From: an uncultured Bacteroidia bacterium
GTDB taxonomy: Bacteria; Bacteroidota; Bacteroidia; Bacteroidales; UBA932
Assembly: GCA_902784965.1 (NCBI GenBank)
Contig: CACZWU010000021.1
Coordinates: forward strand, 1-36,534
Length of the DNA: 36,534 nucleotides
Direction: 5' to 3'
Each line of letters begins with the position of its first letter. Within the stretch, counting starts at the first letter, position 1. Under the pieces are notes generated by a model. The model was given only the letters and a program-made list of their open reading frames with translations. It made no database searches and had not been told where the DNA came from. The position numbers were made by a program, and so were the translations under genes. Positions 5,836-32,163 of this stretch are shown piece after piece.

Positions 5836-6021
5836 TAAAAACCAGGTTTCATTTCCTTCAAAGCGGGGTTTGTAACGCATTTGTGACCCTTTTTATCCAT
5901 CAAAACCCTACCAGCAGGCACACCAGTAGCACTTTTACGTTTTAACAAGTTTTGCGTTTTTACAAATCGAAAATATTTCACGATTTTGAAACCCATCCCG
6001 CAACCCCTCATAAAAAATTTT

Positions 6022-6029
6022 TATCTTTG
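6022..6029 (+). promoter_or_regulatory. Candidate -7 element of the AraC-type regulator
   Basis: TATCTTTG matches TAnnTTTG exactly and ends 17 nt before the ATG at 6047, so the predicted leader is only about 10 nt. No TTTG stands at the expected -33 distance; the nearest (5985-5988) is too far upstream. Confidence 0.5.
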
Positions 6030-6046
6030 CATCAGATTTCCGGCCT

Positions 6047-7339: not shown

Positions 7340-10300
7340 TTGACAAAGTTGGCGCCTGACGGCATACCGATGCCGCGGATGATGATCTTGCTGATCTTGA
7401 CATCATCAGAACTCGTGAAGGTGAGCGTATGCGCGGCAGGGTCGCTTGTCATGGTGCTATACGAAACAGGGAAGTTCCAAATGTACTGCAGTGTCGGAGT
7501 GTCCTTGTAGCCCCAGTATCTCGAAATCGTGCCCTCGCTCACCGACATGTCGGGAACGGTGCTGCCATCAGCGAAGGTGACCTCGACATAATAGAGCGGC
7601 TTGTTTCCGCTGGTAATGGATTTCACGCTCATCGTAAAGGTTTGCGTTGCCTCCGAACTGGGCTTTTCCAACTTCAGGTTTCCGTTTTCCACCTTCACGG
7701 TCTTGTCGAATTCCACTTCAACCTTACAATCATTTTTATAGGAAAAACTCGCCTTTCTCTTGTTGTTGTTGAACGAGTTATTCGTAACAGGCGTTGATTC
7801 GTAATTGCCGATCGCTTGCGCACCGCTAAAACGGCCGGCGGTAATCGTCTTGGTCAAGTAGCTCGGCGCCACCATTCGGAAAGCAAACGGATACTCATTG
7901 CCAGTTTTTGTCTTGAAGGGAATTTCATGATAGGTAACCTCCGTCAACGGGAAGTTGTCGACCGTGGGGACACCTGTACTGGAATTACCGGGATAATACA
8001 GGTAGGTGAACGCCTTGTCTGTACCCACCTCCTTTAACGTTACTACCGCAGGAAAATCTTTGTCATCCCGATAGCCGAAAGGAGCCGCCTTACCATTATT
8101 TCTGGCATCTGTGGTAACATACTCAAACATCACGTTGGAATACAAGTTCACTCCCTTCGACCAGATGCCATCGCGGAAACGACAATCCGTGAAGCGGCGC
8201 AAAGCGACGGAAACAGGCGTATATCTGTCTTCTTCTCTAGCTGAAATATCGATCGAAAAATCGCCATCCGTTTCACTGATTATCTGGACGAGTTGATCAG
8301 TCAGCTTAAAGCGGATATCCTGCATCTCCTGCGTCGCTTGATATTCATACGTAACGGAACCATCGCCGTTGTTCGTTATCGTCGCTTCGGGAAGGTCGGA
8401 AACCACCATTACCCCCCTTGTGAGCAACGAGACCCGAGGAAAACCATATAGATAGCTCTCCTCCACCTCAAAATGAATCGGGAATGTATATTCGGTCGAT
8501 TGCAAATCAGACAGTTCAAACGAAGGAATCGTCAGGTTCCGGAACTTTTTCGCAGCATTCTGAAAAGCCGCCCAGTTGGTTTCAAAATTATCGCTCGCCA
8601 CCCATATTTTCGTAGCGTTCTCTGTCCGCGTAGTCACAAATTCACTCACTACTGGACGCCACATACTGCCGTTGTCAGGATCTTTGACGCTCTGTATGGC
8701 AGGATCCATGTATTCTTCGTAGGTTAGCGACCGGATAAACTGGAAAGTTCCGGTGGCCTTCTCGACAACGGGAACAGCTATGGTATGACCATACACAACC
8801 GGCATGTTGGAGCCTGTCTTGGGCATCAAAGACATCGCTTCCGGCTCGATGGTAAAATCGAGCGGGAACATCGACTGCGGCAAACCCTCCGGAATCAGGA
8901 TGGTCAATGTCTGTTCAGCACCGATCACATTTTCCAATTCGGGCTTCAGACAACTTACTTTCATTTGCTGACTTGGCAATATCGTAATCTGGACATCCCG
9001 GAAAAATAGCTTCGCCACGTTATTCTCAATGAAACTGGCCTTGACGCGAAGCGTCTGGGTCCTCGGCTTCGTACCACTTTCCGGTGCAACGGTCGAAAAA
9101 TAAATCTGACGCCACCCGTCTATCCACGCCGCTGACGGATCTCCTCCTGTAATAGGAGGGTGAGCGATGAAGGCATCGGTAATCACATCTCCCAGACCAT
9201 CCTCAACCGGAAGGATCTCCAGCGTCACAGGGTTGTTCTCCTCATCCGGCACGTTGGAAACGAGATACACCGTATGGCCATCAATGGTCCTCGTCTCACC
9301 AGAATCGGTATACTTCTGATTTACGATGGGCGTAGTCCCGGTAATGTCTTCGAACAGCTTAACACTCAGCACATTGTTGTCGGTCTGTTTCATATGGAAA
9401 GTGCGCGACATCCACGGACGGACGCTTAGCTGGGCAATGCCGTCGGAAATGTCACCCAGGTGGCTGGTGGAAACTTCTGATGAGATATCGACACCTCCCA
9501 CAGATTCCGCTGCACCTTGCGGCGTAGAAAAGCCTTTGGTCCCGATTCTTGTAATATGGATCTGATAGTTGAAATTCCGATAGATGGGATAATAGTAGCC
9601 GCCATCGGCCAAATCGACTTTGTAGTAATAATTGTTTCCGTCCTTGTATGTGCCATACACTATCACGAATGTCGCTTTGAGCGCCTCGTTCGGAACCGGA
9701 CGCTCATACAGGAATGCAGCAGCATCAGCTCTGATAAAATGGTCAAGGTCTGGTATCGTCTCGTCGAAAATGGCTTCGTCGGGCAGACTTGCCGGATATT
9801 TCAGCTCTCCAGAAAGCCTCTCAAAAGTTTGATCCTGATAGTCTTCAACAAACATCAAAGAGCCCATATTCCCTTTCCATAACGGTGCAATGGTCCCTTT
9901 CGTCGGGACATTGACGATGGCAAAGCTAATGGGCGTAAAATTGGACTGTTCAGGATCATCGGCAACAATGGAAATTTTCGCCCAATTCCGTACCAGCGGA
10001 ACCTTATTCAATTGCTCATTGGTGTAATCGTCCGGAACATAACCTGTTCCGTCTTCAATGATGTTACCGTCCTTATCGATATAATGTCCTTGCTTATCTT
10101 TCAACGCACCGATGCGATCCATTCTCCTGATCTGCCAAAAGCCGCCTTCTCCTCCCTCCGACATCAATGTGGCCATCACGGTGGTGTCAGCATCGTAAGG
10201 CAAGGTCACAGGGCCATTCCCGATGAAATGGATGATTCGATTTTTCTCCGAAAGAGACAGTGTCGCGGAGTACTTGATCAAAGGCACTGTATGCTCATGT

Positions 10301-10668
10301 TTCGCCTTTTCTTCGGACGTCATTCCCTCATTCCAGTACGGATCCCTATACGTATATGTCTCCGGAGCCCATTCACCAGTACCCGTGTCTCCCAGACGCA
10401 TTGCCTTGACATACTCCTTCAAATAACCGGAACTGCCGAAGACAGCCAAGTGAAGCGTATTGAGCTTGCCCTCATCCCCTATGCCGTCCTCTGCCTTGGT
10501 GCCGACCCGCTCTTCAGGAGCCGGCACGGAGAAGGTAATCGTCACCTTTTCCCCCTCCGGGAACGGATCTCCATCGACAAGAAGCATCTGCGGAATATCA
10601 CGCACACAGGCAGACGCCAAAAGCAGCGTCGCCAGCAACCCGTACAAATATCGCTGATATCGTTTCAT
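7234..10668 (-). CDS. Large DUF4906-type fimbrial lipoprotein (1144 aa), likely tip/adhesin
   Basis: Last gene of fimbrial operon 2. The start at 10668 is chosen because its ATG overlaps the stop of the preceding gene (ATGA), and because MKRYQRYLYGLLATLLLASAC is a good lipoprotein signal (C21). A candidate maturation site is VGTKAE (T57-K58-A59). KVTITFSVPAPEE ... LNTLHLAVFGSSGYLKEYVKA and the later YYKVDLADGGYYYPIYRNFNYQIHITRI are typical of DUF4906 proteins, which are found in Bacteroidales pilus loci. The rest is beta-rich and repetitive without a clear catalytic motif. Position last in the operon and large size suggest a tip adhesin (inference). The C-terminal ~35 residues read antisense to the AraC-type gene and may be an artefactual extension: after IIIRGIGMPSG the composition changes. 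Confidence 0.8.
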   Translation of the reverse strand: MKRYQRYLYGLLATLLLASACVRDIPQMLLVDGDPFPEGEKVTITFSVPAPEERVGTKAEDGIGDEGKLNTLHLAVFGSSGYLKEYVKAMRLGDTGTGEWAPETYTYRDPYWNEGMTSEEKAKHEHTVPLIKYSATLSLSEKNRIIHFIGNGPVTLPYDADTTVMATLMSEGGEGGFWQIRRMDRIGALKDKQGHYIDKDGNIIEDGTGYVPDDYTNEQLNKVPLVRNWAKISIVADDPEQSNFTPISFAIVNVPTKGTIAPLWKGNMGSLMFVEDYQDQTFERLSGELKYPASLPDEAIFDETIPDLDHFIRADAAAFLYERPVPNEALKATFVIVYGTYKDGNNYYYKVDLADGGYYYPIYRNFNYQIHITRIGTKGFSTPQGAAESVGGVDISSEVSTSHLGDISDGIAQLSVRPWMSRTFHMKQTDNNVLSVKLFEDITGTTPIVNQKYTDSGETRTIDGHTVYLVSNVPDEENNPVTLEILPVEDGLGDVITDAFIAHPPITGGDPSAAWIDGWRQIYFSTVAPESGTKPRTQTLRVKASFIENNVAKLFFRDVQITILPSQQMKVSCLKPELENVIGAEQTLTILIPEGLPQSMFPLDFTIEPEAMSLMPKTGSNMPVVYGHTIAVPVVEKATGTFQFIRSLTYEEYMDPAIQSVKDPDNGSMWRPVVSEFVTTRTENATKIWVASDNFETNWAAFQNAAKKFRNLTIPSFELSDLQSTEYTFPIHFEVEESYLYGFPRVSLLTRGVMVVSDLPEATITNNGDGSVTYEYQATQEMQDIRFKLTDQLVQIISETDGDFSIDISAREEDRYTPVSVALRRFTDCRFRDGIWSKGVNLYSNVMFEYVTTDARNNGKAAPFGYRDDKDFPAVVTLKEVGTDKAFTYLYYPGNSSTGVPTVDNFPLTEVTYHEIPFKTKTGNEYPFAFRMVAPSYLTKTITAGRFSGAQAIGNYESTPVTNNSFNNNKRKASFSYKNDCKVEVEFDKTVKVENGNLKLEKPSSEATQTFTMSVKSITSGNKPLYYVEVTFADGSTVPDMSVSEGTISRYWGYKDTPTLQYIWNFPVSYSTMTSDPAAHTLTFTSSDDVKISKIIIRGIGMPSGANFVNYPEMRLKVLLKEEALRKPHALAISSCEASGWERM

Positions 10669-13352
10669 CGCGGTCTGTCCCCCCATACAAATTCATTCCT
10701 GTTCTCCTGCTGCTCATCACCCCAATACCAGGTATCATATACACAACGAAGCATCGCCTCGGTTACGCTTACATCCTTCACATTGCCGGCAGACTCAACC
10801 TTGATGGCACCTGTGGAAGACCAATATGTTCCTCCCGTGTTGAAAAGTTCTGCAAACACTTTATTAGAAGAAAGCATAGCGGCGAATCTGATTTCTCCCT
10901 TCGTGGGCAGACGCCAGCGACCGGCAGGAAAGCCATCCTCCTGATAGACAGCACAACGATAGGTGGCATACTCCTTGGAAATACTCGGGGTATTGTTGAC
11001 ACCACTAAATTCTATCCCGCTGAACTTGGAAGAAACCCGGTAACTGGGAGCCAGCATCGTCTTGGTACGGTCGGCATCATCGGTAGGATAATAAAACATC
11101 AGCGTCCGATAATCCCCTTCCGGATAAAGAGCGCGTGCTTTGGTGAAGCCGTCCCGCAACTCAGGATCCGGTTCGGGCAAAATTCCCCCATGGAACTCCC
11201 CTTCACTGTCATAAAACCTGCTGTTGAACGATCTTTTGTAGTCGCTGTTCAGATCGCGGATCGTGTAGGTCCTGGGATCTCCGATAGTGAAATCACTGCC
11301 GGCCGGAAGTGCCGTCACATTGATTCTGAACATATCCAGGCTGCCGCCCGTGTACCACAACGTACGCCACTGATACTCCTGTCTGATATACAGCGCATCG
11401 ACAGTCGACGGTATTTTATAGAACATATCCTGCTTGTTGTCTCTCTGGTCGCGCCGATTCTGCCGGGCACCCTGCACCCACTTGCAGGCTGTACTGCCAG
11501 CGATTCCTCGATCAACAGGACTGTCCATATTCTCAGGCCAATAAGCACCGCCGTCCACAAAGGCGTATCCCCAGTACTGGGAATCTGATGCTTTTGTCGT
11601 ATTTGCGTTGGGATAGACCGTCGTCGTTCCCCCTTCGGTTTCTGCATCGGAATTCGTTTTCCGGTCGATATAGATCGCAGGGTATTGCTCAACCCGCACT
11701 GTTTTCTCAATCCTGTCGGAATCTCCGTGCTGCAAGGTAAAGAAAATCGAATAGGGAGAATAGTCGAAATCCGCTTGCGTATAGTCATTGACCAGTTCGT
11801 GACGGACGATGACGCTGGCCAAAGCTTCCACCACCAGGAACTCAAATTTGTTGATTTTGACGGAAACAGCATCATAATCTACTCCCTGCACAGTGACTGT
11901 GGTCTGCGAGCTTACGGCCGTTTGACCATAGATATAATCCAGATAGAGCATCCCGTCGGGATAGATATCGTGGTCCGTGGCCTTATGGATGATGGCTGCT
12001 CCATCGTAAACCGTTGTCCCTTCCGACTCTGTTCCATAGTAAGGGCGCGTCGCACGGATGGAGCCCTCTTTCATCTGAACGGGATGACTGGTAAGATAAG
12101 GAATGGTCAACTCCCCATAATTGCGCACTACGATGCTGTCGCGTTCCACGAAAAGATAGTGCGCCTCGCCCACCTCGACCTGATGATTGATTTTCTGGTT
12201 GACATTCTGCCAGGGCACGATAAAACAGGAACTCGGGCTGATGGGAACGGCGTTCTCGTCGGTCAGCGCACCCAGGATGTCGATATCGAGATCCAGATGG
12301 TACCAGTTGTTCATCTCGAACTTCTTGTTGAAACTTTCTGGTAACATCACCTTGTAGTAGCACTGCCGCTGATTCGAATAGATATTGTGCTCCACATCCT
12401 CTTCCCGATACCAGGGAAGAATCAGCTTGATGTATGGCTCGCAAGTACCGGCCGCTTTATCGGTAGAACCATACTCCCAGGATTGCGGATACATATACAT
12501 CGGATAGGTGTTGTAATATTTCTTTTCATCGATGATGGTGGGCTCGATCAGATCGGTCACTTCTCCGGTCTGGCTGTTTCGCACGGCAAAGCGGCGTCGG
12601 GCACTGGAATAGTCAAAATATGCCAAAGCGCTGGGCGCTGGATCTCCGGAAATCTTTACCGTGTTGATACCATCTACCAGATAGACCTCCATATTTTCCC
12701 GCATCGGATGCCATTTTTCTCCACCGGCCGTCAACGTTTTCGAAGTTTCCGGGATATGCACGGCAACGGTCAGCTTGCTGGCATAGCGTGCCAGAGCGAC
12801 CGTTCCGGTGCAAACCACCTCTTCATCCACCCCATTGAGATCCAGGGTCTGGAGCCCCCGCATCATAAAGCAATCCTGGCTGATTTTCGAAGGATTGACG
12901 AATTCCGTTGTTACGCTAATGTCGTAAAGCTCCGTCAGTGTCGTGTGGGACAAGTCCGTCTCGGAGACAGGCAGCGGGTCGCTGCCCAGATAATTGGCCA
13001 AGGCAAATACGGTCATCTTTTCAACTCCGGCAGGAAACAGGCTTTGTATCTGTCCAGAGGACACATTAATCTGGAAGTCAGCGCTGCCTGTCGTCGTATT
13101 GTCCAGATCGAAATGTCTGTACAGCACGGCCAGCTTGCTTGGATCCGGTTCGCCGGAATAGAAGAAGAGGTCCACCCCGGTAATCAGGTTTTCGTTGTAT
13201 GCATCCAGGCCCGGCTCAGACTTGGTCTGGGCAGGATCTTCACAATACATCTTCAGCACAATGCGCTGCCCCGTGCCAGACATATTCGGTTCGACACAGC
13301 CAGCCAGCAGCAAAGCGGCTAAACAGACAACGATATGATATACTCTTCTCAT
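10665..13352 (-). CDS. Large accessory fimbrial lipoprotein (895 aa) with C-terminal YWSST-type domain
   Basis: Fifth gene of operon 2. The signal peptide ends in LLAGC (C19), and A-Q-T-K-S at 41-45 is the candidate maturation site. The N-terminal region (RIVLKMYCEDP ... ITGVDLFFYSG ... VEKMTVFALANYLG) resembles the first beta domain of FimB/Mfa-type subunits. The C-terminal ~90 residues contain GRWRLPTKGEIRFAAML and TYWSSTGAIK, the pattern of the FGE/DUF1566-like (C-type-lectin-like fold) domains seen at the ends of Bacteroidales surface proteins. A tip or ligand-binding subunit is therefore plausible. The start overlaps the upstream gene by 4 nt, and its own stop overlaps the next start by 4 nt, so stoichiometry is probably set by translational coupling. 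Confidence 0.8.
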   Translation of the reverse strand: MRRVYHIVVCLAALLLAGCVEPNMSGTGQRIVLKMYCEDPAQTKSEPGLDAYNENLITGVDLFFYSGEPDPSKLAVLYRHFDLDNTTTGSADFQINVSSGQIQSLFPAGVEKMTVFALANYLGSDPLPVSETDLSHTTLTELYDISVTTEFVNPSKISQDCFMMRGLQTLDLNGVDEEVVCTGTVALARYASKLTVAVHIPETSKTLTAGGEKWHPMRENMEVYLVDGINTVKISGDPAPSALAYFDYSSARRRFAVRNSQTGEVTDLIEPTIIDEKKYYNTYPMYMYPQSWEYGSTDKAAGTCEPYIKLILPWYREEDVEHNIYSNQRQCYYKVMLPESFNKKFEMNNWYHLDLDIDILGALTDENAVPISPSSCFIVPWQNVNQKINHQVEVGEAHYLFVERDSIVVRNYGELTIPYLTSHPVQMKEGSIRATRPYYGTESEGTTVYDGAAIIHKATDHDIYPDGMLYLDYIYGQTAVSSQTTVTVQGVDYDAVSVKINKFEFLVVEALASVIVRHELVNDYTQADFDYSPYSIFFTLQHGDSDRIEKTVRVEQYPAIYIDRKTNSDAETEGGTTTVYPNANTTKASDSQYWGYAFVDGGAYWPENMDSPVDRGIAGSTACKWVQGARQNRRDQRDNKQDMFYKIPSTVDALYIRQEYQWRTLWYTGGSLDMFRINVTALPAGSDFTIGDPRTYTIRDLNSDYKRSFNSRFYDSEGEFHGGILPEPDPELRDGFTKARALYPEGDYRTLMFYYPTDDADRTKTMLAPSYRVSSKFSGIEFSGVNNTPSISKEYATYRCAVYQEDGFPAGRWRLPTKGEIRFAAMLSSNKVFAELFNTGGTYWSSTGAIKVESAGNVKDVSVTEAMLRCVYDTWYWGDEQQENRNEFVWGDRPR

Positions 13353-15283
13353 TGCGGGTAAACTTTGCCTCCTGTCGATGATTTGATGACAAACTCAAAC
13401 CTGTCGTCGAGAATTTCTGAATCGGCGTCTATGATGCGGCCGTCCGACAGGCGGACGGAAAAAGTGAGGGATATTTTCTTTCCTTCCACGGCTTTCGACG
13501 GATCATCCGAACGGTAAACTTTGACGTAGATACGGCCTCCATCGCGGGATCGGTCGATTTTTCCGTCATGGGTTGTTGTCTCGCCCGTCTTGGATTCGAG
13601 TTCAATCACAAAAGCATCGACATCGCCTTTCGGCGTCACGATCAAAGTTCCGCCATCGGGGGCATAGATGGCAACCCGGCCTCGTGCATAATTGAAGGGC
13701 GTTGCATTCCTCGCTGGAACGTGTACTTCGTAATGGTCCACCTTCGTCGTACTGCCGGCCCTGTACACCGTATCCATCTGGCCGTAGCCAAGCACGGAAG
13801 GATCCACAAAGAATTTTCCGTCCTGATCCACGTTGACAGTCTGCTTACTCTCGATTCCTTCCGTGTTTTTGCCTTCCCAGGGGAGCACCGAAGCGGTAAC
13901 TTCCAGGCGCTGCTGAAGAATGGAGTAATAGGCATAGACCGTCCAACTGTGATTGCGGTAGAAGTTGGTTTCGGAAGGTGAATCCGGCATACTGAAGGCA
14001 GCGGGCGTCTCTACCTGATTGTTGAATTTATACGTAATGCGGCCCTTGACGGGCTTGTCGCTTTCCCTGAAATAGATGATTTTTTCTGTTGAGGTCTTGT
14101 CGCCCACCCATCGGTTCAGGAAGGACTCGTATTCAGCCGCCGTCATCTGGCTCGGCGACTTGCCGGAAACCATATCGATAACGCCGCTGGTGCTGTTCAG
14201 GCGCAGCGGATTTTTGTCCTCTTTGATATCCGTATCACCGACCAGCAGCCTCCCTGCGGCGCCCTCCATCGAAGCGATGGAATACGCATCGCCCGGCAGA
14301 TCGATCGCCGTGCCTGTTTCGCGAGGAAAGACATAGCTCGCATCGGGAATGACGCCCGTATCATCATCATCATCACCGGTACCTTTGTCGTCCAGCAACT
14401 GTATGCTGACGATACCGATGCCCGTACCGAGCAGATCGGGAGATTTCGCAAACACGAAACGCAACTTGGACACCGCCCGGGAGATGGTCATCTGGGGACA
14501 CAAGACAGCCCAGTTCCACTTCCCATTGTCAAGGAGGTGACTGGTGATATAGGATTTCTGCGCATCGGTAAAATCCAGCGCTACAAATTCTCCATCGTTC
14601 GGATCATAGGCTAGCGCGTGGTGCGTCATCATATAGGTCAACTGCTCGGAAGAGAAATGCTGATTCACAAACGACAAGTCATATCCTTCTCCTCCGTTGT
14701 TGAAGAAGCCCGAGAGCGGAAGGCCTTCGCGCGGAACACCGATGACAGGCGTTACCGTACCGAAGCCGCGACCATCGGTGTTGCCGAAGGTCTTTGCCTT
14801 GAGCTGGCCCCGCGTAAGCGTGCGTGTAGAGCCGGTGGGTTCAAAACCAATGGACTGTCCATTGCCCAGCACATAAAAATCGAACTTCAGTGCGTCGTCC
14901 GGCCTATTGAACAAATAACTGGGGAAGAAAATATCCGCCTCTAGAATCTTACCGCTCGCGTTGGGTTTGATATTGATGGGCGACAGGCCCAGATAGGCGA
15001 CGGCAGCTTCACCATCGCCGGCCGTCGAACTCGCATCTTGATGGGAAAAAGCCCAGACCTGCAAATCGTGCAAAGTGTTTTCTGCTACACTTGCCGGTAC
15101 ATCTCCCGCCCCTGCCTTGGTAGGGACGTCCGAAACCGGCAGATAAATCCGGATAGGAAACATCACCGCATTGGGGTCGTTCTGCACATCGTAGGGTTGA
15201 AGCGGTTCCACACAGCCCGCCCCGGCGAACGCCAGCAGGGCCATCGCCAGCAGAACAATGCCAATATGGAATCTTCTTGCCAT
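13349..15283 (-). CDS. Accessory fimbrial lipoprotein (644 aa)
   Basis: Fourth gene of operon 2. The signal peptide ends in FAGAGC (C24); D-V-P-T-K-A at 52-57 is the candidate Lys maturation site. The mature protein begins with a fimbrial-like beta domain (MFPIRIYLPVSDVP ... LHDLQVWAFSHQD ... LKFDFYVLGNG) and includes an Asp-rich stretch (DDKGTGDDDDDTG) near residues 310-325. The C-terminal domain (about 500-640) is all-beta, with TLIVTPKGDVDAFVIELES and ISLTFSVRLSDGRIID. I do not recognize a named family. It shares the fimbrial-subunit layout of its neighbours and is likely an adaptor between stalk and tip, or an Mfa3/Mfa4/FimC-like accessory component. The stop of the upstream anchor gene and this ATG share one base (TGATG at 15283), indicating coupling. 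Confidence 0.78.
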   Translation of the reverse strand: MARRFHIGIVLLAMALLAFAGAGCVEPLQPYDVQNDPNAVMFPIRIYLPVSDVPTKAGAGDVPASVAENTLHDLQVWAFSHQDASSTAGDGEAAVAYLGLSPINIKPNASGKILEADIFFPSYLFNRPDDALKFDFYVLGNGQSIGFEPTGSTRTLTRGQLKAKTFGNTDGRGFGTVTPVIGVPREGLPLSGFFNNGGEGYDLSFVNQHFSSEQLTYMMTHHALAYDPNDGEFVALDFTDAQKSYITSHLLDNGKWNWAVLCPQMTISRAVSKLRFVFAKSPDLLGTGIGIVSIQLLDDKGTGDDDDDTGVIPDASYVFPRETGTAIDLPGDAYSIASMEGAAGRLLVGDTDIKEDKNPLRLNSTSGVIDMVSGKSPSQMTAAEYESFLNRWVGDKTSTEKIIYFRESDKPVKGRITYKFNNQVETPAAFSMPDSPSETNFYRNHSWTVYAYYSILQQRLEVTASVLPWEGKNTEGIESKQTVNVDQDGKFFVDPSVLGYGQMDTVYRAGSTTKVDHYEVHVPARNATPFNYARGRVAIYAPDGGTLIVTPKGDVDAFVIELESKTGETTTHDGKIDRSRDGGRIYVKVYRSDDPSKAVEGKKISLTFSVRLSDGRIIDADSEILDDRFEFVIKSSTGGKVYPQ

Positions 15284-16434
15284 CAGACTTCAGGATTATA
15301 TTCCGTTCCTTGTTTCCATTGGAGCGTTACGCTCACGCCCACCACCGTCGAATCGGACGGGGGTTCGGGCGGCTCGTCCGGACCGCCCGGGCCTGGATTG
15401 TAGGGTTCATGCTCCGGCCGTGGCGTAAAGCTGCCGTCGGCGCAGATCCAGCCCTTGATGATCATCAGGCTGCCCGCCACCAGCGGACGGCCGATATAGA
15501 TCTGGCTGCGGGTCACCGAGTCGTCTTCCAACGTCACGTAAAGGTCGATGGTCCAGATCTTCGGATAGATACCCACGACCTCCGAACTGACGTTCGGGCT
15601 CGGGAAACCCACGCCGCAAACCATCAGCGGCATCTTCGTCCACAACTCCCAGAAGATATCGTAGATGAACGGATCCGCTTCCATGCTGAAGTCCTCTTCG
15701 CTGGCAGTGTAAGGCACGACGTCGATGTTGTCGGCCTGGATCACCGCCTGCTGGTCGAAGGAATAGGCGCTGTCCAGCACCTTGAAGGTGTCGGCCAGTC
15801 CGATATACTCGGCCCGGATGGACTTCACTTCGCAGGAGTCCCGGTTGAGGAGCAGGGCTGCAGCGGAGTTGGCCATATAGAAATGCATATCGAACGCCTG
15901 ATCATCCTTGTCGCGGACCAGGATCCGCTTCCGCGCCGTGAAAGCGGCCGCCGGGTGCGAAGTCACTGCCTTGGCCGACAGCTTCTGCACCACAGCCACC
16001 CCGGCACTGTTTTCTTCGTCCTTCAGCGAAAGCATCGGTACGGCCGAAAGATTCGAAACACCGACGACCCTGTAGTCCGACGCGGGAACGCGGAACGTGA
16101 AAACCTTCTGCCCGGCATCCATTACTTCTTTTTGGCGGAAGGTCATCTTTCCACGGTTGCGCTGGTCGTAGAACAGCAGTTCCACGTCGTGGGAAGTGGT
16201 GGCGAAGACATCGGTCAGGTAGTCTTCGAGCGCTTCCCGCAAAGGCCGGTCGTGCAGCGTACCGAGCTTTTCGTCCATCTCCTGCTCTTTATTGTTCACC
16301 AGATTGAGGGAACAGGTCAGCGTCATCTCTTCCGGGCAATCGTCCCGACGTTCGTCGACCAGGGCACAGCCCGAGAAGGCTGCACCCGAGAGGACGCACA
16401 GCGCGACAAAGGAAGAGATGACCGAAATCTTCAC
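15283..16434 (-). CDS. FimB/Mfa2-family fimbrial anchor lipoprotein
   Basis: Third gene of operon 2, 383 aa. The signal peptide ends at C23 (AAFSGC), and the segment after it (ALVDERRDDCPEEMTLTCSL) resembles FimB/Mfa2-family anchors, which carry a D-x-C-P motif just after the lipidated Cys. The body has two beta domains (VELLFYDQ ... FTFRVPASDYRVVGVSNLSAVP; later WTIDLYVTLEDDSVTRSQIYIGRPLVAGSLMIIKGW). Unlike the other subunits of this operon it lacks a T-K/R site near residue 50. In the Porphyromonas system the anchor keeps its lipid and tethers the pilus base to the outer membrane; the same role is inferred here. Its place directly after the major subunit gene matches mfa1-mfa2 and fimA-fimB order. 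Confidence 0.83.
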   Translation of the reverse strand: MKISVISSFVALCVLSGAAFSGCALVDERRDDCPEEMTLTCSLNLVNNKEQEMDEKLGTLHDRPLREALEDYLTDVFATTSHDVELLFYDQRNRGKMTFRQKEVMDAGQKVFTFRVPASDYRVVGVSNLSAVPMLSLKDEENSAGVAVVQKLSAKAVTSHPAAAFTARKRILVRDKDDQAFDMHFYMANSAAALLLNRDSCEVKSIRAEYIGLADTFKVLDSAYSFDQQAVIQADNIDVVPYTASEEDFSMEADPFIYDIFWELWTKMPLMVCGVGFPSPNVSSEVVGIYPKIWTIDLYVTLEDDSVTRSQIYIGRPLVAGSLMIIKGWICADGSFTPRPEHEPYNPGPGGPDEPPEPPSDSTVVGVSVTLQWKQGTEYNPEV

Positions 16435-16452
16435 GGCGCAGGATAGAAACTA

Positions 16453-18684
16453 TCAGTTGCCTGTAACAGTGCCAACAGGAATATTATAAGATGCACCTGT
16501 TTTCCAGACAAGATCGACCGAAAGGCCGAAAGACATCTTGGCGGCACGAAGGTCCGGTATCGTAACCACAGCGCTCTTCAACGCATCTTTCGACAAGGTG
16601 ACAGTCAAATTGGTTCTGGTATCGGCCATAAAAACGCGAGGCTTCTTTGAGGTCTTGCCTTCATTGTCATACGGCGGCATCATATTCTGTTCATCCGTAT
16701 CCAATGCGATTGTACCGGGCCAAGTTTTAGGCGCTTCCAGGTTCAACAAGAGATAAAAAGTACCGCCGGCACGAACCATATTGTCCTTGCCCCAGAAATC
16801 CTTCCCGGTCATATTCAAGAACTGCAAGGCCACAAAGACATCATTCTGATTGTCAGGGTTCTCAAAGTTGTAATTATCGTGAAGAACCGTATAATTATTG
16901 CCGCTCATCGGAATCTTTGCTCCTTTGAAACCTGATGCAGAGTAATCCTGAGGGCAAATATAACTATCATATACCATCTTGTTCATATTGAATGCAGGGA
17001 TCTGTTCAGCAGGAAGTACAGTAGATAAATCTGATGCTACGCTAGCCCAGGGAAGATACTGCCAGTTGGCAATGGAGGGCTGTCCTCCGACAATAATACC
17101 CGTCAAAACCAACGGTGTTGAGTTCGAGACTATGATGGTCTGGTCGCTTTGTCCCGTATGCCCGGGAATACCGGCATTATTGTCTATCAATTCATATCCT
17201 CCAGCAACAGGTTCGTCCTTGAATTTCACTGTTGTTGCAAGAATGGCCTGTCCATACTGAACATTGAAAGCCATAGCCACACCGCGTGTCGAAGTCGTAA
17301 TATGGCCATATTTGACTTTACCACTACCATCTGTCTCCCATTTCCCCGCACAGGTTCCGCTAGTCCAGCTCGAGAGATTCGACCAGTTGCCTACCGTATT
17401 AGGATAGCCTGGATACGTATGTTTATGCTCCGAGTCGTCCAGATCATTGCTATTACTGATATACAGGGGAGAGTTGGCGTAGTAGCACAACTGGGGAGGA
17501 TATGTCACATCGTAAATAGTGCTTCCCGTGGCGCCCGTTCCCTCTGGATTGTCGATATACTTAAGTTGTCTATACGGGCCCGTGCTATCTTTTTTAAGAA
17601 TTGCTACGCCTACAGGAAGCTTGAAAGAAGTCGGAAACGCATTGAAATCCACGCCTTCCGGTTTATTAAATCCAGGTGCGATTCCCCAATATGTAAAACC
17701 ATTATCCAAATCAGTAGCACTCTTCCAATTAGGCGTATCATCGAAAAAGGATTGCAAATAAGACTTCAAGACAGTAAAAAACTGTATGGCTACCGCTTCT
17801 TCATCATCCAAAGGTGTTGCAGTGGCGGCATCTTCGCAAAGATACAAGAGACCTGCCACCTGACTGGCAATGTCCGGACCGGAACCGGATCTCGCTTCAC
17901 TGTCAGGAATATTCGTCAAAGCATCAAAAGTTTTACCCAAAACAATTTCGAGAGCAGCCGGATTAGCACTCTCATTGAGCGGACTGCGAGGATTAGTTTC
18001 ATCTATTGCTTTAAGATAGTCCTGCCAGTGAACCGTTTTGTTTTTATATTTTTCAATCTCGATCTCTGTGTTGTCCAACCTCGTTCCGCTACTGACTCCC
18101 ATTCCTAATTTGAACATATTGTTTAGTACTGCCAACATATAACCACGTGTCTGGTTAAATTTCGTCGCGACATCAGACCCCTGCGGAAGACGGGCCACAG
18201 CATAACTGCCGATATGCTTCAGGTGTTTATCAGGATAAATATAGTTGGTCAAACCGGCTTCTTCATCCGACCTGTCGCCTTTCGTTGCCATACCGTAGAA
18301 TATCATGGTGTTGGCACCCAAAGGTAAGGGCAGTTCAAGGACGCGACGACTGTTTTGGTTAGTGATAACCCCTTTATCGAGGACAGTGGACAGGTCGAAA
18401 GCACTTCCTTCTTTCGGGGTCAAAAGCTTTTCTCCGTCTTTATCCTGATCAAAGACAAACAAAGTGGCATTGTCCATACCCAGGAAGGCAGTTTCAATCT
18501 GAACCGCAGAAGCCGACTGTTTGGTAAGGGGGTCCCCTTCCGCAGCCGCGATGTTGAGCACGAAACTGGTATTGACCGTGTTCGTGGCCGGGTCAAAATT
18601 GGGATTGACCTGTTGCTGCTCCACGCAGGCCGTCAAGCCCAGGACGGCTGCGAGGCAAAATGAAATGAAAATTGATTTCTTCAT
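16453..18684 (-). CDS. Mfa1-like major fimbrial subunit (fimbrillin)
   Basis: Second gene of operon 2, 743 aa. The start at 18684 is chosen because MKKSIFISFCLAAVLGLTAC is a lipoprotein signal (C20); the open frame runs 103 codons further upstream only by chance, across the DUF3575 gene. L-T-K-Q-S at 53-57 is the candidate maturation site. The C-terminal part (GGTFYLLLNLEAPKTWPG, PRVFMADTRTNLTVTLSKDALKSAVVTIPDLRAAKMSFGLSVDLVWKTG, split here) closely follows the Mfa1/fimbrillin C-terminal domain, whose last strand is donated during polymerization. It is about 180 residues longer than P. gingivalis Mfa1, with extra sequence in the middle. This gene is visibly AT-richer than its neighbours, as expected for surface genes under diversifying selection or transfer. 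It probably forms the pilus shaft. Confidence 0.85.
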   Translation of the reverse strand: MKKSIFISFCLAAVLGLTACVEQQQVNPNFDPATNTVNTSFVLNIAAAEGDPLTKQSASAVQIETAFLGMDNATLFVFDQDKDGEKLLTPKEGSAFDLSTVLDKGVITNQNSRRVLELPLPLGANTMIFYGMATKGDRSDEEAGLTNYIYPDKHLKHIGSYAVARLPQGSDVATKFNQTRGYMLAVLNNMFKLGMGVSSGTRLDNTEIEIEKYKNKTVHWQDYLKAIDETNPRSPLNESANPAALEIVLGKTFDALTNIPDSEARSGSGPDIASQVAGLLYLCEDAATATPLDDEEAVAIQFFTVLKSYLQSFFDDTPNWKSATDLDNGFTYWGIAPGFNKPEGVDFNAFPTSFKLPVGVAILKKDSTGPYRQLKYIDNPEGTGATGSTIYDVTYPPQLCYYANSPLYISNSNDLDDSEHKHTYPGYPNTVGNWSNLSSWTSGTCAGKWETDGSGKVKYGHITTSTRGVAMAFNVQYGQAILATTVKFKDEPVAGGYELIDNNAGIPGHTGQSDQTIIVSNSTPLVLTGIIVGGQPSIANWQYLPWASVASDLSTVLPAEQIPAFNMNKMVYDSYICPQDYSASGFKGAKIPMSGNNYTVLHDNYNFENPDNQNDVFVALQFLNMTGKDFWGKDNMVRAGGTFYLLLNLEAPKTWPGTIALDTDEQNMMPPYDNEGKTSKKPRVFMADTRTNLTVTLSKDALKSAVVTIPDLRAAKMSFGLSVDLVWKTGASYNIPVGTVTGN

Positions 18685-18712
18685 AGTAATGGATGTGTTG
18701 ATTATTGATTGA

Positions 18713-19441
18713 TTATTCGTTTTTCTTGTTGATGGTATAAACAATGTTGACACCCACGTTGGGCAGGAGTGCGGCACCGCTGCGCGGGCCAATGACCCGG
18801 CCGCAGCTGGGACATTCATAGACGATGTCGCTGTACCAGCCGCCGCTGGCGCCCAGCAGGGCCTCGATGCGCCAGTGATTGCCGATCGGGAAGGCATAGC
18901 CGTAGAACAGGCCGCCGCCGAGGAAGTCGCCCTGCACACGCTGGTCGGCCACGCCGGGATACAGGTTGAACGGGAAGCGGATGGAGCCCGCATTGTAGTG
19001 CAGCCAGAGCAGGTTGGCGCCGAAGAAATGGCCGCGGCTCACCTGGCTCAGGTAGTAGCGGAACTCCGGCACAAGCGAGAGGTGACGCCACTTCTGGACG
19101 AGACTCTGTTCCCAGGGGAAGAAACGGTCCCAGGGCTTCAGGCCGAAGGTCCCGCCGACACTCGCATGCGTGCCGAGGGCGAACTCCACCGAGAGGTTCA
19201 TCGTGCCCGTGGCGTCGTACGCCAGGTTGTTGCGGATCGAGAAGACCGTGGCGGGGTTGGCCTTGCGATAAACGGGTGTCTGCTCCTTCTTGGGAAGGTC
19301 GACGGCTCCACCAGCCCAGGGGTCAGAGGCCTCCTGGGCGAAGGTGAACGTAGCTGCGACTGAGCTGAATAAGAAGCCTAAAGTCGCAACTATCAGTACC
19401 TTACGGATATAATTCGTTGCTCTGTCGGACAATCCGTTCAT
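18713..19441 (-). CDS. DUF3575 outer-membrane protein of fimbrial operon 2
   Basis: First gene of operon 2, 242 aa. A signal peptide (about residues 1-36, ending TFTFAQ) precedes a single DUF3575 domain: FSIRNNLAYDATGTMNLSVEFALG, KWRHLSLVPEFRYYLSQVSRGHFFGANLLWLHYN, GDFLGGGLFYGYAFPIGNHWRIEALLGASGG, and a CPSCGRVIG cysteine pair near the end. The family is predicted to form a small outer-membrane beta-barrel. It lacks the OmpA-like half present in its operon 1 counterpart (4284-5681), so the two fimbrial operons are headed by different versions of the same component. It ends 28 nt before the major subunit start. A role in pilus secretion or assembly is inferred only from recurring gene neighbourhood. 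Confidence 0.85.
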   Translation of the reverse strand: MNGLSDRATNYIRKVLIVATLGFLFSSVAATFTFAQEASDPWAGGAVDLPKKEQTPVYRKANPATVFSIRNNLAYDATGTMNLSVEFALGTHASVGGTFGLKPWDRFFPWEQSLVQKWRHLSLVPEFRYYLSQVSRGHFFGANLLWLHYNAGSIRFPFNLYPGVADQRVQGDFLGGGLFYGYAFPIGNHWRIEALLGASGGWYSDIVYECPSCGRVIGPRSGAALLPNVGVNIVYTINKKNE

Positions 19442-19607: not shown

Positions 19608-19757
19608 GTCCGCCAACCTGTGACACACCACATTCTCTCCAAAGGCCACCAGCGCATCTCTCCGTGGAACGGGAGCCCTAGTGAAGGTCCCGTTCCACGG
19701 CCACCATCGATAGCAAACCCACAACCGCATCCGCCGTGTCACAGATTGGCAGAGCCG
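19608..19757. repeat. Nested palindromic element, copy 1 (5' of HUH transposase-like gene)
   Basis: Outer arms GCCAACCTGTGACAC (19612-19626) and GTGTCACAGATTGGC (19736-19750) are inverted with 14 of 15 matches. Inner arms CCGTGGAACGGGA (19662-19674) and TCCCGTTCCACGG (19688-19700) are inverted with 13 of 13 matches. The two nested stems make a ~140-bp structure. It shares its outer GTGACAC arm and inner GTGGAACG core with copies at 20774-20917 and 25318-25467. It ends 97 bp before the transposase-like gene. Confidence 0.88.
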
Positions 19758-19822
19758 CCACAAAAAATGTCCCCATTTTGTCAAAATTGCTTTTTTGCGG
19801 CCCTCTTCTCAAAATCCTCACC

Positions 19823-19830
19823 TATCTTTG
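19823..19830 (+). promoter_or_regulatory. Candidate -7 element of the HUH transposase-like gene
   Basis: TATCTTTG fits TAnnTTTG exactly and ends 16 nt before the ATG at 19847. A TTTG at 19794-19797 is 25 nt upstream, longer than the usual spacer, so expression may be weak. Confidence 0.45.
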
Positions 19831-19846
19831 TGAAGAATTCTCCATT

Positions 19847-20770
19847 ATGAACGAACGAGGCGAGCGAACTATGAATGATCTTTCTTTTTTCCATCTGACC
19901 GGCGACGGCGCCGTCATCAAGGAATTCATCGCATCGGACGATGACTTTCCTGCTGCTTTCAACCTGATCGGCGTATGTGCCTTCAACGCCGGCGTCATCG
20001 TGATGGCCTTCGGCATCGAAGAAACACACCCGCACATCCTCCTCAGAGGCCACCGGGAACGTTGCATGCGTTTCAAATGTCTGTTCGAGGGCAGCTTCCT
20101 GCACCACGCTGCGCGTACACGCAAACCGCCCGTCAACTTGAACCTGGATCTGGACCTGCTCGACATCGCCGATGAAAGCCATCTGATGAACGCGGGCACC
20201 TACACCATCATCCAACCTACCAAAGATGGCAAGCAGGTGATGCCCTACGACTACCTCTGGGGAACCGGTTCCATGTATTTCCGGCCACCAACGCACATCC
20301 CCATCTGGTGTTACGACGCTGCCGGTGTCTTTCACCAGCCGGAACGCGCAGACCAGGTTGGCGCCCGCCGTCTTCGGGCCATCTGCTGCTCCCGGATGCC
20401 GATTCCCGACCATTGGCTGATTTGCAACGGCCTCATTTTGCCGGACAATTACGTGGATGTGGCCGCTTTCGAGCGCATCTACCGGACGGCCAACTGCTAT
20501 CGCACCTTCCTGACGAGCAGCCGGGCGCAACAGCAGACTGTCCAACAACGGATTGCGGCAGCCCGCGGCGTGAGTTTCGATGATCTGGAAGCGCGCAGGC
20601 TGTGTGGCGACGGCTGTCAGCGGATGTTCGGTTTCAAGGACGTCCGGCGGCTCAATGCCCTGCAGCGCATCCAGCTGGCCCAGCAGCTGTGGCGCACGCA
20701 TCACCTCTCGCGGCGGCAACTCGCCACGATCGTCCGTCTTCCCTACGAAGAAATCTGCAAGTATACCTGA
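19847..20770 (+). CDS. Divergent Y1/HUH (REP-associated tyrosine transposase-like) protein
   Basis: A 307-aa protein. I read it as a Y1-type single-strand transposase from three landmarks in the right order. FFHLTGDG (14-21) matches the N-terminal strand (YHVTSRG in typical members). ETHPHILLRG has H61-x-H63, the metal-binding HUH pair seen as PNHVHLL in RAYTs. YTIIQPTKDG with Y119, followed by MPYDYLWGTGSMYF, fits the catalytic YI-x-x-NPV helix and PEDYPWSSY segment. About 150 further residues include a C-terminal helical segment (LSRRQLATIVRLPYEEICKYT) that could bind DNA. The start at 19847 follows a good -7 element; a longer frame upstream would run through the palindrome. Nested palindromes lie 97 bp upstream and begin 3 nt after the stop codon, as in RAYT-REP loci. 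It is apparently intact. The alternative is a domesticated DNA-binding relative; the Asn of the NPV motif is absent. Confidence 0.72.
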   Translation: MNERGERTMNDLSFFHLTGDGAVIKEFIASDDDFPAAFNLIGVCAFNAGVIVMAFGIEETHPHILLRGHRERCMRFKCLFEGSFLHHAARTRKPPVNLNLDLDLLDIADESHLMNAGTYTIIQPTKDGKQVMPYDYLWGTGSMYFRPPTHIPIWCYDAAGVFHQPERADQVGARRLRAICCSRMPIPDHWLICNGLILPDNYVDVAAFERIYRTANCYRTFLTSSRAQQQTVQQRIAAARGVSFDDLEARRLCGDGCQRMFGFKDVRRLNALQRIQLAQQLWRTHHLSRRQLATIVRLPYEEICKYT

Positions 20771-20773
20771 TTC

Positions 20774-20917
20774 CCGCCAACCCGTGACACCGCTAGCTTC
20801 GCCGCAGGGGCAGGAAGACGAGTGCCCGTGGAACGACCCCCTCAACTGAGGGCCCCGTTCCACGGGCACCTTCGCTAGCGCGCACTCAGACGCTATCACC
20901 GTGTCACAGATTGGCGG
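20774..20917. repeat. Nested palindromic element, copy 2 (3' of HUH transposase-like gene)
   Basis: Outer arms CCGCCAACCCGTGACAC (20774-20790) and GTGTCACAGATTGGCGG (20901-20917) are inverted with 15 of 17 matches. Inner arms GTGCCCGTGGAACG (20822-20835) and CGTTCCACGGGCAC (20856-20869) are perfect over 14. A middle pair CGCTAG (20791-20796) and CTAGCG (20875-20880) is also inverted. The unit is in the same orientation as copy 1, starts 3 nt after the transposase-like stop codon and ends 62 nt before the convergent aldolase gene's stop. It may also serve as a bidirectional terminator. Confidence 0.88.
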
Positions 20918-20979
20918 ACGGACGAGCCAACGGACGCACAAACGGCCGCACATCAGCCGAAGCGGGCGCTCGCCCTACA

Positions 20980-25317: not shown

Positions 25318-25467
25318 TGTCCGTCAAAGTGTGACACGCATGAAAGGTTAAGAAGGAATCTACGAAGGGGCTTTGTGGAACGACCCCCTGTACTGAGGGG
25401 GTCGTTCCACAAAGAAAGCGGCCTTAATGCGTAGGACTTTAACGACCGTGTCACACTTTGACGGACA
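25318..25467. repeat. Nested palindromic element, copy 3 (near-perfect)
   Basis: Outer arms of 21 nt (25318-25338 and 25447-25467, TGTCCGTCAAAGTGTGACAC plus one base) are perfectly inverted. Inner arms CTTTGTGGAACGACCCCCT (25371-25389) and AGGGGGTCGTTCCACAAAG (25396-25414) are perfectly inverted over 19 nt with the 6-nt loop GTACTG. The core GTGGAACGACCCCCT is identical to that of copy 2. The element fills most of the gap between the small barrel gene and the tricorn gene and sits about 80 bp upstream of the tricorn start. It is far from the transposase-like gene, as expected for a dispersed non-autonomous element. Confidence 0.92.
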
Positions 25468-25490: not shown

Positions 25491-27224
25491 TCAGAAGATA
25501 TAGCGCAGGCCGACGAGGAAGGAGAGATTCCGGGTCGAGCCCGGAATGACGGAAGAGGTCAAGCCCGGAATGACGGAAAAGGTCAGGCCCGAAGGGGCAT
25601 AGCGGCAGTAGCCGGTGAGCTGGAGGGTGTGGTCGCGACTGCCGGCCGGGAAGACAATGTCCTGGCTCAGGCGGGCCTCAACGGCGTGATCCCACGAAAG
25701 GGAAGCGGGCGACAAATCGTCGATCAGACTCGCGCCGGTATAGAGCGCGGAGAGCGCCGTGGCGGCGCGCTGGCTCCACGGCATCTTGTAGGAAAAGCCC
25801 GCACAGATGCGGTCGCGGACGCTGCCGTCACTGTGCGTGTAGGAAGCGAGCGCCCAGGCTCGGTCGGCGAAAGGCCGCTCGAGCCGTGCCGTCAGCTCGT
25901 AGTGGCTCTCGAGCACGTTGTGCGAGGAGATATAGAATGCGCGGCGCCACGACTGCCCGTATACGCCTTCCAGCGTGAGCCGGAAATCGAGCGGCAGCCG
26001 CGTGTCGAACGCCACCAGATTCTTCCAGACCGTTCCCTCGCCGTGGCGGCCATAGACCGCCGTACCCATGCGCAGCACCAGTTTGCCGTTGCCCAGCAGG
26101 TCGTAGTACAGGCTCAGGCGGGGCGAGAAGGCGAAGGGGAAGGAGAAACGGATGCCGCCCTGTAGGGTGATCTTCCGGCCGAGCCGGACCACATCCTGCA
26201 CGTAGATGTCACCGTGCGTGGAGGTCGAGTCGGCCGTCGGGAACTGCTGATAGGAGAACTGCACGCCGGCCAGCAGGCGGTGACGGCCGGCCGCAAAGGT
26301 GAAGTCGTCGGAAGTAAGCATCTGCCGGGCGAGGCCCGTATCGTACCAGCCCGTCTGCAGCCGCATGGAGCCCGCGCCGTCGAGCATCGACATGGTCAGG
26401 CCCGTAGCCGCCCAGGTCTCGGGATAGACCCCATCGGCCAGCCGGCCGCCCGACAGGTCGAGCCGGAAGCGGTTGCTCAGGCGCGCGTCGAAGCGGGCGG
26501 CGCCGGACAGTGCGTCGAGACCGCTGCGGCCGCTCAGGCCGCCGTACTGCAGGCCCGCAAAGAGCTGGTAGTCCTCGTTCCCGAGCGGCGTGGCGACATT
26601 GAGGCCGCCGACGCCCAGATGCCGGGTCGAGCCCGGGGTGACGGTCTCGCCGCCGTAAAAGCCGTAGGCCGTGCCGTGGAAACGGCTGGCGCCTGTGGGG
26701 GCCACCCACTGCTGCGTGGTGCCGACCAGCGGCGATTCCTGCCGCACGTCGAAGGTGACCGGCGTATAGATGCGCTGGCTCACCAGGTCGTAGCCCAGCG
26801 GCGAGACCGGCACGATACCGCCGCCCAGCTCCGGACCCACCCGCATAGAAGTGGCCGCTTCGTCGACCTGCACGCGATACGACTTCTCTTCCAGGTCGGC
26901 GTCGACGCGGGTGTTCTGTCCGGCATAAGTAAAGAGATTCCGGACGGTCAGCGGATCGTAGCCGAAATAGTGGATGCGCAGGGTGTAGGGCCCGCCTGGC
27001 AGGACGTCGAGCAGCTGCCACCAGCCACCCCGGTCGGTCGTGGCGTAGTATTGCGCGTTGGTCTGCTGGTGGATGGCCACCACAGTCACGCCTTCGATGG
27101 GTCCGTTCTCGTCGGTAATGCGGCCGCCAAACGTCGCCACGGCGGTCTGTCCCGCCGCGCTCTGTGCCGACAGCAGCGCTGTTGTCAGGACGAGTAGTAT
27201 GAGAGTGTGGAATTTTCGTATCAT
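25491..27224 (-). CDS. Small Oar-like outer-membrane barrel protein, apparently without a plug
   Basis: A 577-aa protein with a signal peptide (about 1-25), a carboxypeptidase-regulatory-like beta domain (about 28-113: GGRITDENGPIEGVTVVAIHQQ ... GWWQLLDVLPGGPYTLRIHYFGYDPL) and a beta-barrel. It is related to the 1094-aa receptor just upstream: TFDVRQESPLVG and ASRFHGTAYGFY correspond to PFDVRQSNFVGG and TFKGTVYGYY there. The ~110-residue plug region between the two domains is reduced to about 40 residues with no recognizable TonB-dependent plug, and the barrel is roughly half length. Two stretches, VTPGSTRHLG and VIPGLTSSVIPGSTRNLS, come from in-frame palindromic repeats. The protein ends in RYIF, a good outer-membrane C-terminus. 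It may be a divergent small barrel or a degraded paralogue that stays open. Confidence 0.78.
   Translation of the reverse strand: MIRKFHTLILLVLTTALLSAQSAAGQTAVATFGGRITDENGPIEGVTVVAIHQQTNAQYYATTDRGGWWQLLDVLPGGPYTLRIHYFGYDPLTVRNLFTYAGQNTRVDADLEEKSYRVQVDEAATSMRVGPELGGGIVPVSPLGYDLVSQRIYTPVTFDVRQESPLVGTTQQWVAPTGASRFHGTAYGFYGGETVTPGSTRHLGVGGLNVATPLGNEDYQLFAGLQYGGLSGRSGLDALSGAARFDARLSNRFRLDLSGGRLADGVYPETWAATGLTMSMLDGAGSMRLQTGWYDTGLARQMLTSDDFTFAAGRHRLLAGVQFSYQQFPTADSTSTHGDIYVQDVVRLGRKITLQGGIRFSFPFAFSPRLSLYYDLLGNGKLVLRMGTAVYGRHGEGTVWKNLVAFDTRLPLDFRLTLEGVYGQSWRRAFYISSHNVLESHYELTARLERPFADRAWALASYTHSDGSVRDRICAGFSYKMPWSQRAATALSALYTGASLIDDLSPASLSWDHAVEARLSQDIVFPAGSRDHTLQLTGYCRYAPSGLTFSVIPGLTSSVIPGSTRNLSFLVGLRYIF
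25526..25600. repeat. ATTCCGGG/CCCGGAAT palindromic repeat, partial tandem array in coding DNA
   Basis: A full unit ATTCCGGG-TCGAG-CCCGGAAT at 25527-25547 is followed by tandem partial units: TCAAGCCCGGAATGACGGAA, then TCAGGCCCGAAGG. Read on the gene strand it encodes the VIPG-(L/S)-T motif near the C-terminus of the small barrel protein. Related units occur at 26617-26646, 33044-33079 and 35974-36026. Confidence 0.85.
26617..26646. repeat. Diverged palindromic repeat unit in the small barrel gene
   Basis: GCCGGGTCGAGCCCGGGGTG followed by ACGG resembles the 25527-25551 unit and encodes VTPGSTRHLG, parallel to VIPGSTRNLS at the C-terminus. It is more decayed than the other copies and may be an older insertion. 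Confidence 0.6.
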
Positions 27225-30859: not shown

Positions 30860-30870
30860 CGCTCCCAAAC

Positions 30871-30921
30871 CTGTGGATGGATTTGACTGCTTGCCAACCA
30901 CACTAAAAAAAGGCTAAAATT
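30871..30921 (+). promoter_or_regulatory. Candidate SAM-II-like riboswitch in the metK leader
   Basis: A 5-bp stem TGTGG (30872-30876) with CCACA (30898-30902) encloses GGATTTGACTGCTTGCCAA, and GCTAAAA (30913-30919) follows, ending 2 nt before the ATG. This order (P1, GAUUU-containing loop ending in AA, P1', A-rich linker, GCUAAAA) is that of the SAM-II aptamer. GCC (30893-30895) could pair with GGC (30912-30914) as the pseudoknot. Differences: three extra bases between P1 and GATTT, and weak pairing for the second pseudoknot helix. Sequestering the start region would repress metK when SAM is plentiful. A plain hairpin is the alternative. Confidence 0.42.

Positions 30922-32163
<1,242 letters not shown>

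Follow-up and report, generated by a model that had tools for sequence, protein, structure and literature searches.

The gene described here likely encodes a divergent HUH enzyme resembling the REP-associated tyrosine transposases (RAYTs), which would act on single-stranded DNA and have its own non-autonomous four-arm elements. What is new is the DNA element, which has a rigid four-arm design with gene-specific arms. The window, which is the whole stretch of DNA analysed, comprises 36,534 nt from an uncultured Bacteroidia bacterium (Bacteroidales; UBA932; GCA_902784965.1, contig CACZWU010000021.1, forward strand, positions 1-36,534). A preliminary description had reported a RAYT-like gene between two palindromes. 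Both flanking copies were confirmed, and a third copy that it had missed was found between two minus-strand genes (Table 1).

Table 1. Gene and four-arm elements located in the window.
Feature	Position	Strand	Details
RAYT-like Y1/HUH gene	19847..20770	+	likelier start 19871, giving 299 aa (MNDLSFFHL)
Left four-arm nested palindrome	19608..19754		outer arms 19609-19626 / 19736-19753; inner arms 19662-19674 / 19688-19700
Right four-arm nested palindrome	20773..20919		outer arms 20773-20790 / 20901-20918; inner arms 20822-20844 / 20847-20869
Third copy, gene-free	25320..25465		25 nt past the stop of the minus-strand gene 25491-27224

The open reading frame spans 307 aa. The family alignment indicates that translation probably begins at 19871, and H61, H63 and Y119 of the longer frame become H53, H55 and Y111 in the 299-aa numbering used below. 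The preliminary description had located the 307-aa frame, its HPH pair, the tyrosine and both palindromes correctly. It had placed the second palindrome 3 nt past the stop; the stop codon ends at 20770, and the gap is 2 or 3 nt with 20773 or 20774 as the first base. The NPV that it reported missing after the tyrosine is indeed not there, and the protein reads YTIIQPTKDG at this place.

Homologs of the protein (E <= 0.001) were found in 78 of 297 related genomes, all from one bacterial family, and the 118 sampled genomes of the order's other families had none at this threshold. Scanning named genomes with a sequence pattern yielded 112 stretches, of which 85 were relatives and 80 were kept; by their titles, most of these belong to uncultured Bacteroidales or Bacteroidia, and the gut of ruminants or horses is the source of many. 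H53, H55 and Y111 were invariant in the aligned members (26/26 and 55/55), giving the HxH metal pair and downstream catalytic tyrosine of the HUH Y1 superfamily. The residue between the histidines varied, with HPH in the window protein and HPH, HIH, HLH, HVH, HAH, HYH or HFH in the others; the bulky hydrophobic residue of the HuH motif is therefore missing from the window protein. Most family genes (72/80) were intact, with no stop and at least 285 aa. The other eight comprised four cut by contig ends, one short gene and three with stops or frame breaks. Selection was purifying, with a median dN/dS of 0.088 over 16 usable pairs (dS 0.05-2) and a value of 0.121 for the window gene against its relative in genome G003. 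The near-identical intragenomic transposase units of IS200/IS605 were not seen in the window's genome (G000; a draft, 78% complete), where the next homolog was 53% identical.

Structure prediction, which had been proposed as a check, gave a confident AlphaFold model (pLDDT 92.5, pTM 0.84). The predicted fold is that of a Y1 transposase: the core runs in the order beta-alpha-beta-beta-alpha-beta-alpha, and Y111 sits on the helix that follows the final core strand. The best PDB match in Foldseek was 4er8, the TnpA-REP bound to a REP hairpin (E 4.3e-3, probability 1.00), followed by the ISDra2 and IS608 transposases. The matches to TnpA-REP and IS200/IS605 proteins had probabilities of 0.97-1.00 and E-values of 4e-3 to 0.1. 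Acylphosphatases were interspersed with the transposases from rank 10, and no PDB match fell below E 1e-3. The best matches were thus Y1 transposases, albeit with weak E-values, which agree with the element order in the core, the invariant residues and the profile matches of distant members. The suggested comparison with the Y1_Tnp profile turned out differently for the window protein and its relatives. Searches of Pfam, NCBIfam, PHROGs and PADLOC gave the window protein no significant match of relevance, and none to PF01797 or the RAYT model. Among the 55 members, four distant ones matched Y1_Tnp (PF01797; best 5.5e-5) and four matched NCBIfam REP_Tyr_transpos (NF047646; best 5e-8), counting E-values up to 0.1; where scores were listed, they fell short of the curated cut-offs. 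Two other candidates were set aside: a DSRM_RDM1 match (E 0.0038) was below its cut-off and ignored, and the one match in a PDB sequence search (E 0.83) was judged to be chance. Foldseek against viral models gave nothing below 1e-3.

The preliminary description had also stressed unusual motifs and a C-terminal extension of about 150 residues. Both stood, since the motif is HPH without NPV, and the C-terminal domain was as conserved as the whole protein (mean column identity 58% vs 57%). When this domain was searched alone with Foldseek, nothing fell below 1e-3 (best E 0.61). With the model and the invariant residues, both fold and motifs uphold the RAYT-like reading.

The window elements are about 146 nt long. 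As had been proposed, the left and right palindromes share both their outer arms (TCCGCCAA..TGTGACAC / GTGTCACA..TTGGCGGA) and their inner arms (GTGGAACG / CGTTCCAC). The foot-plus-arm pattern TCCGCCAANNTGTGACAC, which was derived from the window elements themselves, had six matches in the window with at most three mismatches, against a shuffle mean of 0.49. None of 100 shuffles reached six, and the elements are therefore not due to chance. Single-strand DNA folding of the three copies gave z-scores of -4.55, -6.12 and -11.46. The inner arms fit the A' expected from the family (see below) at just 5/8 places but pair perfectly with each other. The window elements consequently passed a paired-arm scan and failed a stricter four-pairing scan, with 26/32 pairs against a threshold of 27. 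Between 19400 and 21100, three terminator-like sites were predicted, against a shuffle mean of 1.5. Two of them lie outside both elements, and the third overlaps the left element and differs from its nested stem.

Several other features of the window were recorded. Rfam reported only a SAM-II riboswitch (30867-30927, 56.2 bits), which overlaps the start of the ORF 30922-32163, presumably metK. A short dispersed repeat, GGGTCGAGCCCGGAATGAC, at 25524-25556 had many partial matches across the genus genomes, and we take it to resemble the CGTC-tagged repeats of Di Nocera et al. 2013. On the minus strand, 735-18993 holds a run of large lipoprotein-like ORFs, which we assume to resemble a Bacteroidales fimbrial locus.

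Many family genes were flanked by a nested palindrome of their own, with the same layout and a different arm sequence. An arm A is followed by A' about 46 nt on, and then by A and A' again (A-A'-A-A'), with about 126 nt between the outer ends and arms specific to the gene; the element of locus L088, for example, is of the TGCGGCAG arm type. The paired-arm scan, which demands paired outer and paired inner arms and allows spans of 116-135 and offsets of 40-50, detected an element in 82/147 flanks and in 18/279 control windows. The stricter scan, which weighs all four pairings equally, detected one in 68/147 flanks and in 1/279 control windows, and that control is itself a full four-arm copy. These flank counts omit 7 of the 80 loci (L091, L105, L106, L109, L110, L111 and L114) with truncation, frameshift or contig ends. 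Within the scanned ranges the spacing was rigid: the span was 124 or 126 in 45/82 elements and the offsets were 44/44 or 46/46 in 42/82, with a similar result in the stricter scan. Palindromes on both sides of the gene, as in the window, were not universal in the family. With the strict element, 22 of 74 genes examined had it on both sides, 24 on one side and 28 on neither. Rfam at the gathering score found nothing in six related loci.

The pairing of the arms was examined by covariation in 23 of 33 non-redundant elements, all with the 46/46 layout and none from the window. Compensatory changes on both sides were seen in 29/31 nested pairs of these 23 ungapped elements. The covariation score was 0.668 against 0.202 for shuffled sets, with none of 500 shuffles reaching this value, and slid controls scored 0.11-0.15. 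The covariation of the foot stem and the central hairpin is independent support, because neither was selected for, as the arm pairs were. Nested pairing also beat half-hairpin pairing in 8/8 discriminating elements, with 46 ties; this comparison was made on elements from the scan scoring all four pairings. At the foot, GTAG showed no excess (4/108 feet vs 4 shuffled) and neither did GT[AG]G (6 vs 9 shuffled, same 108 feet), and GCCAA or GCAAA occurred in 43/108 vs 3 shuffled.

Two further sequence features were noticed around family genes. Before the start codon, a conserved leader of the form GTCATC..GGTGGCG..GATTGAGGCGAGAGA.. was present in 22/76 loci by a strict pattern (e.g. L039, L044, L061 and L080), with GATGAC downstream of it in 8 loci. 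It may form a hairpin around the ribosome-binding site; by eye, the strict pattern was not seen in the leader of the window gene. In the flanks of L008, a more distant HVH-type relative, and of L009, there is a shorter alternating-arm repeat, CCATCCTC..GAGGATGG.

The GTGGAACG hairpin pattern alone matched 6/297 genomes (13 forward matches). The reversed-pattern control matched 8/297 (18 forward matches, two genomes having 5 and 7), so this count by itself is little evidence, because the control matches more genomes. In G000, the control had no match and the GTGGAACG pattern four. The outer arms separate the true copies. When they were required, 11 copies remained, in G000 (4), G003 (3), G023 (3) and G026 (1), and the single matches in G046 and G290 lacked them. 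A fifth G000 copy, with one mismatch, is on contig C14; a second, weak palindrome (L192:2076-2226, E 0.013) adjoins it. The complete GTGGAACG type thus occurred in 4/40 genomes of the genus, and two of these, G000 and G003, carry the gene at >= 70% identity. Outside G000 the close gene was found only in G003 (70% identical, intact). G023 and G026, drafts that are 83% and 89% complete, kept GTGGAACG-type elements with no close gene copy.

A covariance model of the general element, with which the right window element scores 35.7 bits, had matches in 27/40 genomes of the genus (E <= 0.01). Across the 297 relatives, searched with stricter filters and few scored candidates per genome (10 among those shown), matches were found in 43 genomes (E <= 1e-4), 42 of which carry a family gene. 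Within the bacterial family, gene and element were both present in 42 genomes, gene alone in 36, element alone in 1 and neither in 100 (Fisher p 4e-18). Outside the genus the same table read 18, 31, 0 and 90 (p 6e-10). These p-values are inflated by phylogeny and draft genomes, and the co-occurrence is partly confounded. Within the genus, model matches were present in 17/18 genomes with a close gene, 9/11 with distant homologs only and 1/11 with no gene. No element was detected by the model in 36/78 gene-bearing genomes. In eight test loci the model found 2/12 distinct GTGGAACG-type elements, and some of its matches were a partial hairpin elsewhere. Because the model is blunt, the element counts are lower bounds and mostly concern other arm types. 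The similarity of the arms tracked protein identity (Mantel r 0.497, 0/2000 permutations, 36 loci), with the lowest identity bin (5 pairs) breaking the trend. Two outcomes had been named beforehand as speaking against the proposal, the lack of a Y1 fold and the lack of palindromes elsewhere that co-occur with the gene. Both were examined and neither came true: besides the predicted fold, the palindromes do occur elsewhere and co-occur with the gene, the window's own type being present in 4/40 genus genomes, two of them with the gene at >= 70% identity, and the general type in 43 of the 297 genomes, 42 of them with a family gene.

Comparison of related genomes at shared sites revealed empty, filled and flipped states, that is, presence or absence at a few sites and an in-place inversion at one. 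G003 has the element L128:7146-7289 at a place whose counterpart in G023 is a clean empty site. At a second site the element lies in opposite orientations in G003 (L128:5561-5686) and G023 (L129:2904-3029); the identity of the interiors was 28/36 and 27/36 when flipped and 8/36 and 10/36 when unflipped. At a third site both genomes have the element, and only in G003 does the gene lie next to it. Another intergenic place holds a solo element in G026, none in G000, an element next to another gene in G033 and G036, and in G039 a family gene within a region that has elements at both ends. In G003 and G023 (L239, L240), a different short repeat like that of L008, CCGTCCAC..GTGGACGG, occupies this place.

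Between the matching genes, G023 has neither the window gene nor the two elements beside it. This insertion site is too diverged from G023 for base-level reading, as is L204 from G023 and G026. The third copy has a counterpart with the same arms between matching genes in G023 (L126), with an approximately random interior (19/36, 18/36). Across four pairs of elements from shared sites, the interiors ranged from this level to near identity (35/36, 36/36). Conservation of the outer arms in orthologous pairs (8/8) was dropped as a measure because it follows from the construction of the search, as do most inner-arm letters. Copies of the window's element type differ in their interiors, with no sign of a recent burst.

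These results suggest how the system might operate. The substrate of the enzyme would most likely be the four-arm element on either side of the gene. Once single-stranded, through replication or cruciform extrusion, the element could fold into an outer stem of about 19 bp, which carries the foot and the outer arms, with a large internal loop and an inner hairpin of about 12 bp. The enzyme would read the gene-specific arms of 8-10 nt, use Y111 and the HxH metal site to nick the DNA at the foot, and rejoin the strands. Copies of about 146 nt could in this way be excised, inserted or flipped, and spread as non-autonomous passengers with the gene staying at low copy. The TnpA-REP proteins of E. 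coli, Stenotrophomonas and Marinomonas are described as cleaving single-stranded REPs in vitro (PMC8266576). From this superfamily we infer single-strand cleavage, the cut site, binding and mobilisation by the present enzyme rather than by host recombination.

The main rival explanation, which we consider unlikely, is a domesticated DNA-binding role, in which a protein with an HUH fold does not cut and binds the four alternating arms as four evenly fixed sites, serving as double-stranded operators or chromosome-organising sites. The spacing that is rigid within the scanned ranges agrees with this, the purifying selection and low copy number fit a host function, and the C-terminal helices look HTH-like by eye, with weak, non-significant Foldseek matches to ParB/Spo0J and WhiA (E >= 0.6). 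Against it stand the invariant HxH and tyrosine, the stem-like covariation of the foot beyond the arms, and the presence, absence and inversion of elements. Somewhat less probable still is an independent MITE or REP family that owes its movement to a different enzyme or to recombination, with the gene merely lying among its copies. Inverted repeats can flip by host recombination, and the retention of GTGGAACG-type elements by the drafts G023 and G026 (83% and 89% complete) with no close gene points the same way; against it, 42/43 element-bearing genomes carry a family gene, the elements directly adjoin genes (68/147 flanks), and the arm sequence tracks the protein sequence. Ordinary intergenic hairpins such as transcription terminators, kept for that reason, are very improbable: the three window copies are intergenic and the right one lies 2-3 nt past a stop codon, but the terminator-like sites are not the nested stems of the elements, terminators are not built on a fixed-length four-arm plan with gene-specific arms, and one relative has a clean empty site in place of an element.

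The favoured reading, an enzyme acting on its own four-arm elements, places the system close to known ones. Known REPs carry GTAG at the foot, which is the guide of known TnpA-REP proteins, and in REPINs and BIMEs inverted REPs are paired. With the TnpA-REP/RAYT REPtrons (E. coli, 4er8), the present family shares the Y1 HUH fold, a single gene with palindromes on its flanks and further copies of them at other places in the genome, and co-variation of protein and palindrome. It differs in its four-arm element of about 146 nt against REPs of 20-40 nt, which bears out the earlier remark on palindrome length, in lacking a GTAG or GTGG foot, in its HPH and YTIIQPTKDG motifs, in the additional conserved C-terminal domain of about 150 residues, and in its number of detected copies, which runs from a few to some tens per genome. 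REPINs and BIMEs likewise combine paired hairpin-forming units into one non-autonomous element; the present element is distinguished by its fixed span of about 126 nt, the repeated arm A-A'-A-A' and a foot other than GTAG. By strict tests (no GTAG, no PF01797, other motifs, a far longer element) this is not a classical RAYT/REP system, and it probably works like one.

The nearest published groups, as far as their descriptions go, are the TnpA-REP subclass 2.6 and the TIRYTs. Subclass 2.6 (Bertels group 5) is described from Bacteroidetes, with genes flanked by 'atypical secondary structures' that have copies elsewhere in the genome (PMC6006769), and in these respects it is like the present family. 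The table in that source gives a median of 179 aa and the motifs NH[LIV]H, WQ and YIH[QN]NP, which the window protein, with 299 aa, THPH and YTIIQP, does not match in length or motifs. TIRYTs and TIRtrons are described as having a RAYT-like gene and long, sometimes 'double palindromic' terminal inverted repeats that have no relation to GTAG REPs, with shared protein signatures and the TIR motif GGGGWSAS (Di Nocera et al. 2013, PMC3733652). By this description they resemble the present system in the RAYT-like gene and the long non-GTAG inverted repeats; the hosts named in the passages are Acidobacteria, Stenotrophomonas, Pseudomonas and others. The window system may extend either group. Subclass 2.6 could share the same element design, and the four-arm plan may already have been seen there or in TIRYTs. 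The suggestion of a distinct HUH/palindrome family thus held as a variant, with a Bacteroidetes subclass with atypical flanking structures already described in print (PMC6006769). That it forms a separate HUH element class in uncultured gut Bacteroidales is a tentative reading. In such a class, a fixed-length four-arm element would be read via gene-specific arms instead of GTAG and could be excised, inserted or inverted in place by the enzyme, the enzyme would join a RAYT fold to the conserved C-terminal domain, and enzyme and arms would have co-diversified into dozens of private recognition codes.

The findings bear on a long-standing puzzle of REPs, namely how a low-copy, possibly domesticated enzyme maintains families of short palindromes. 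Here there are many enzyme-element pairs with one rigid design and different arm codes, and empty, filled and flipped sites across related species. Such pairs make the recognition rules, the cut site and the mobility directly testable, and they provide a natural set of candidate single-strand DNA nickases with different specificities.
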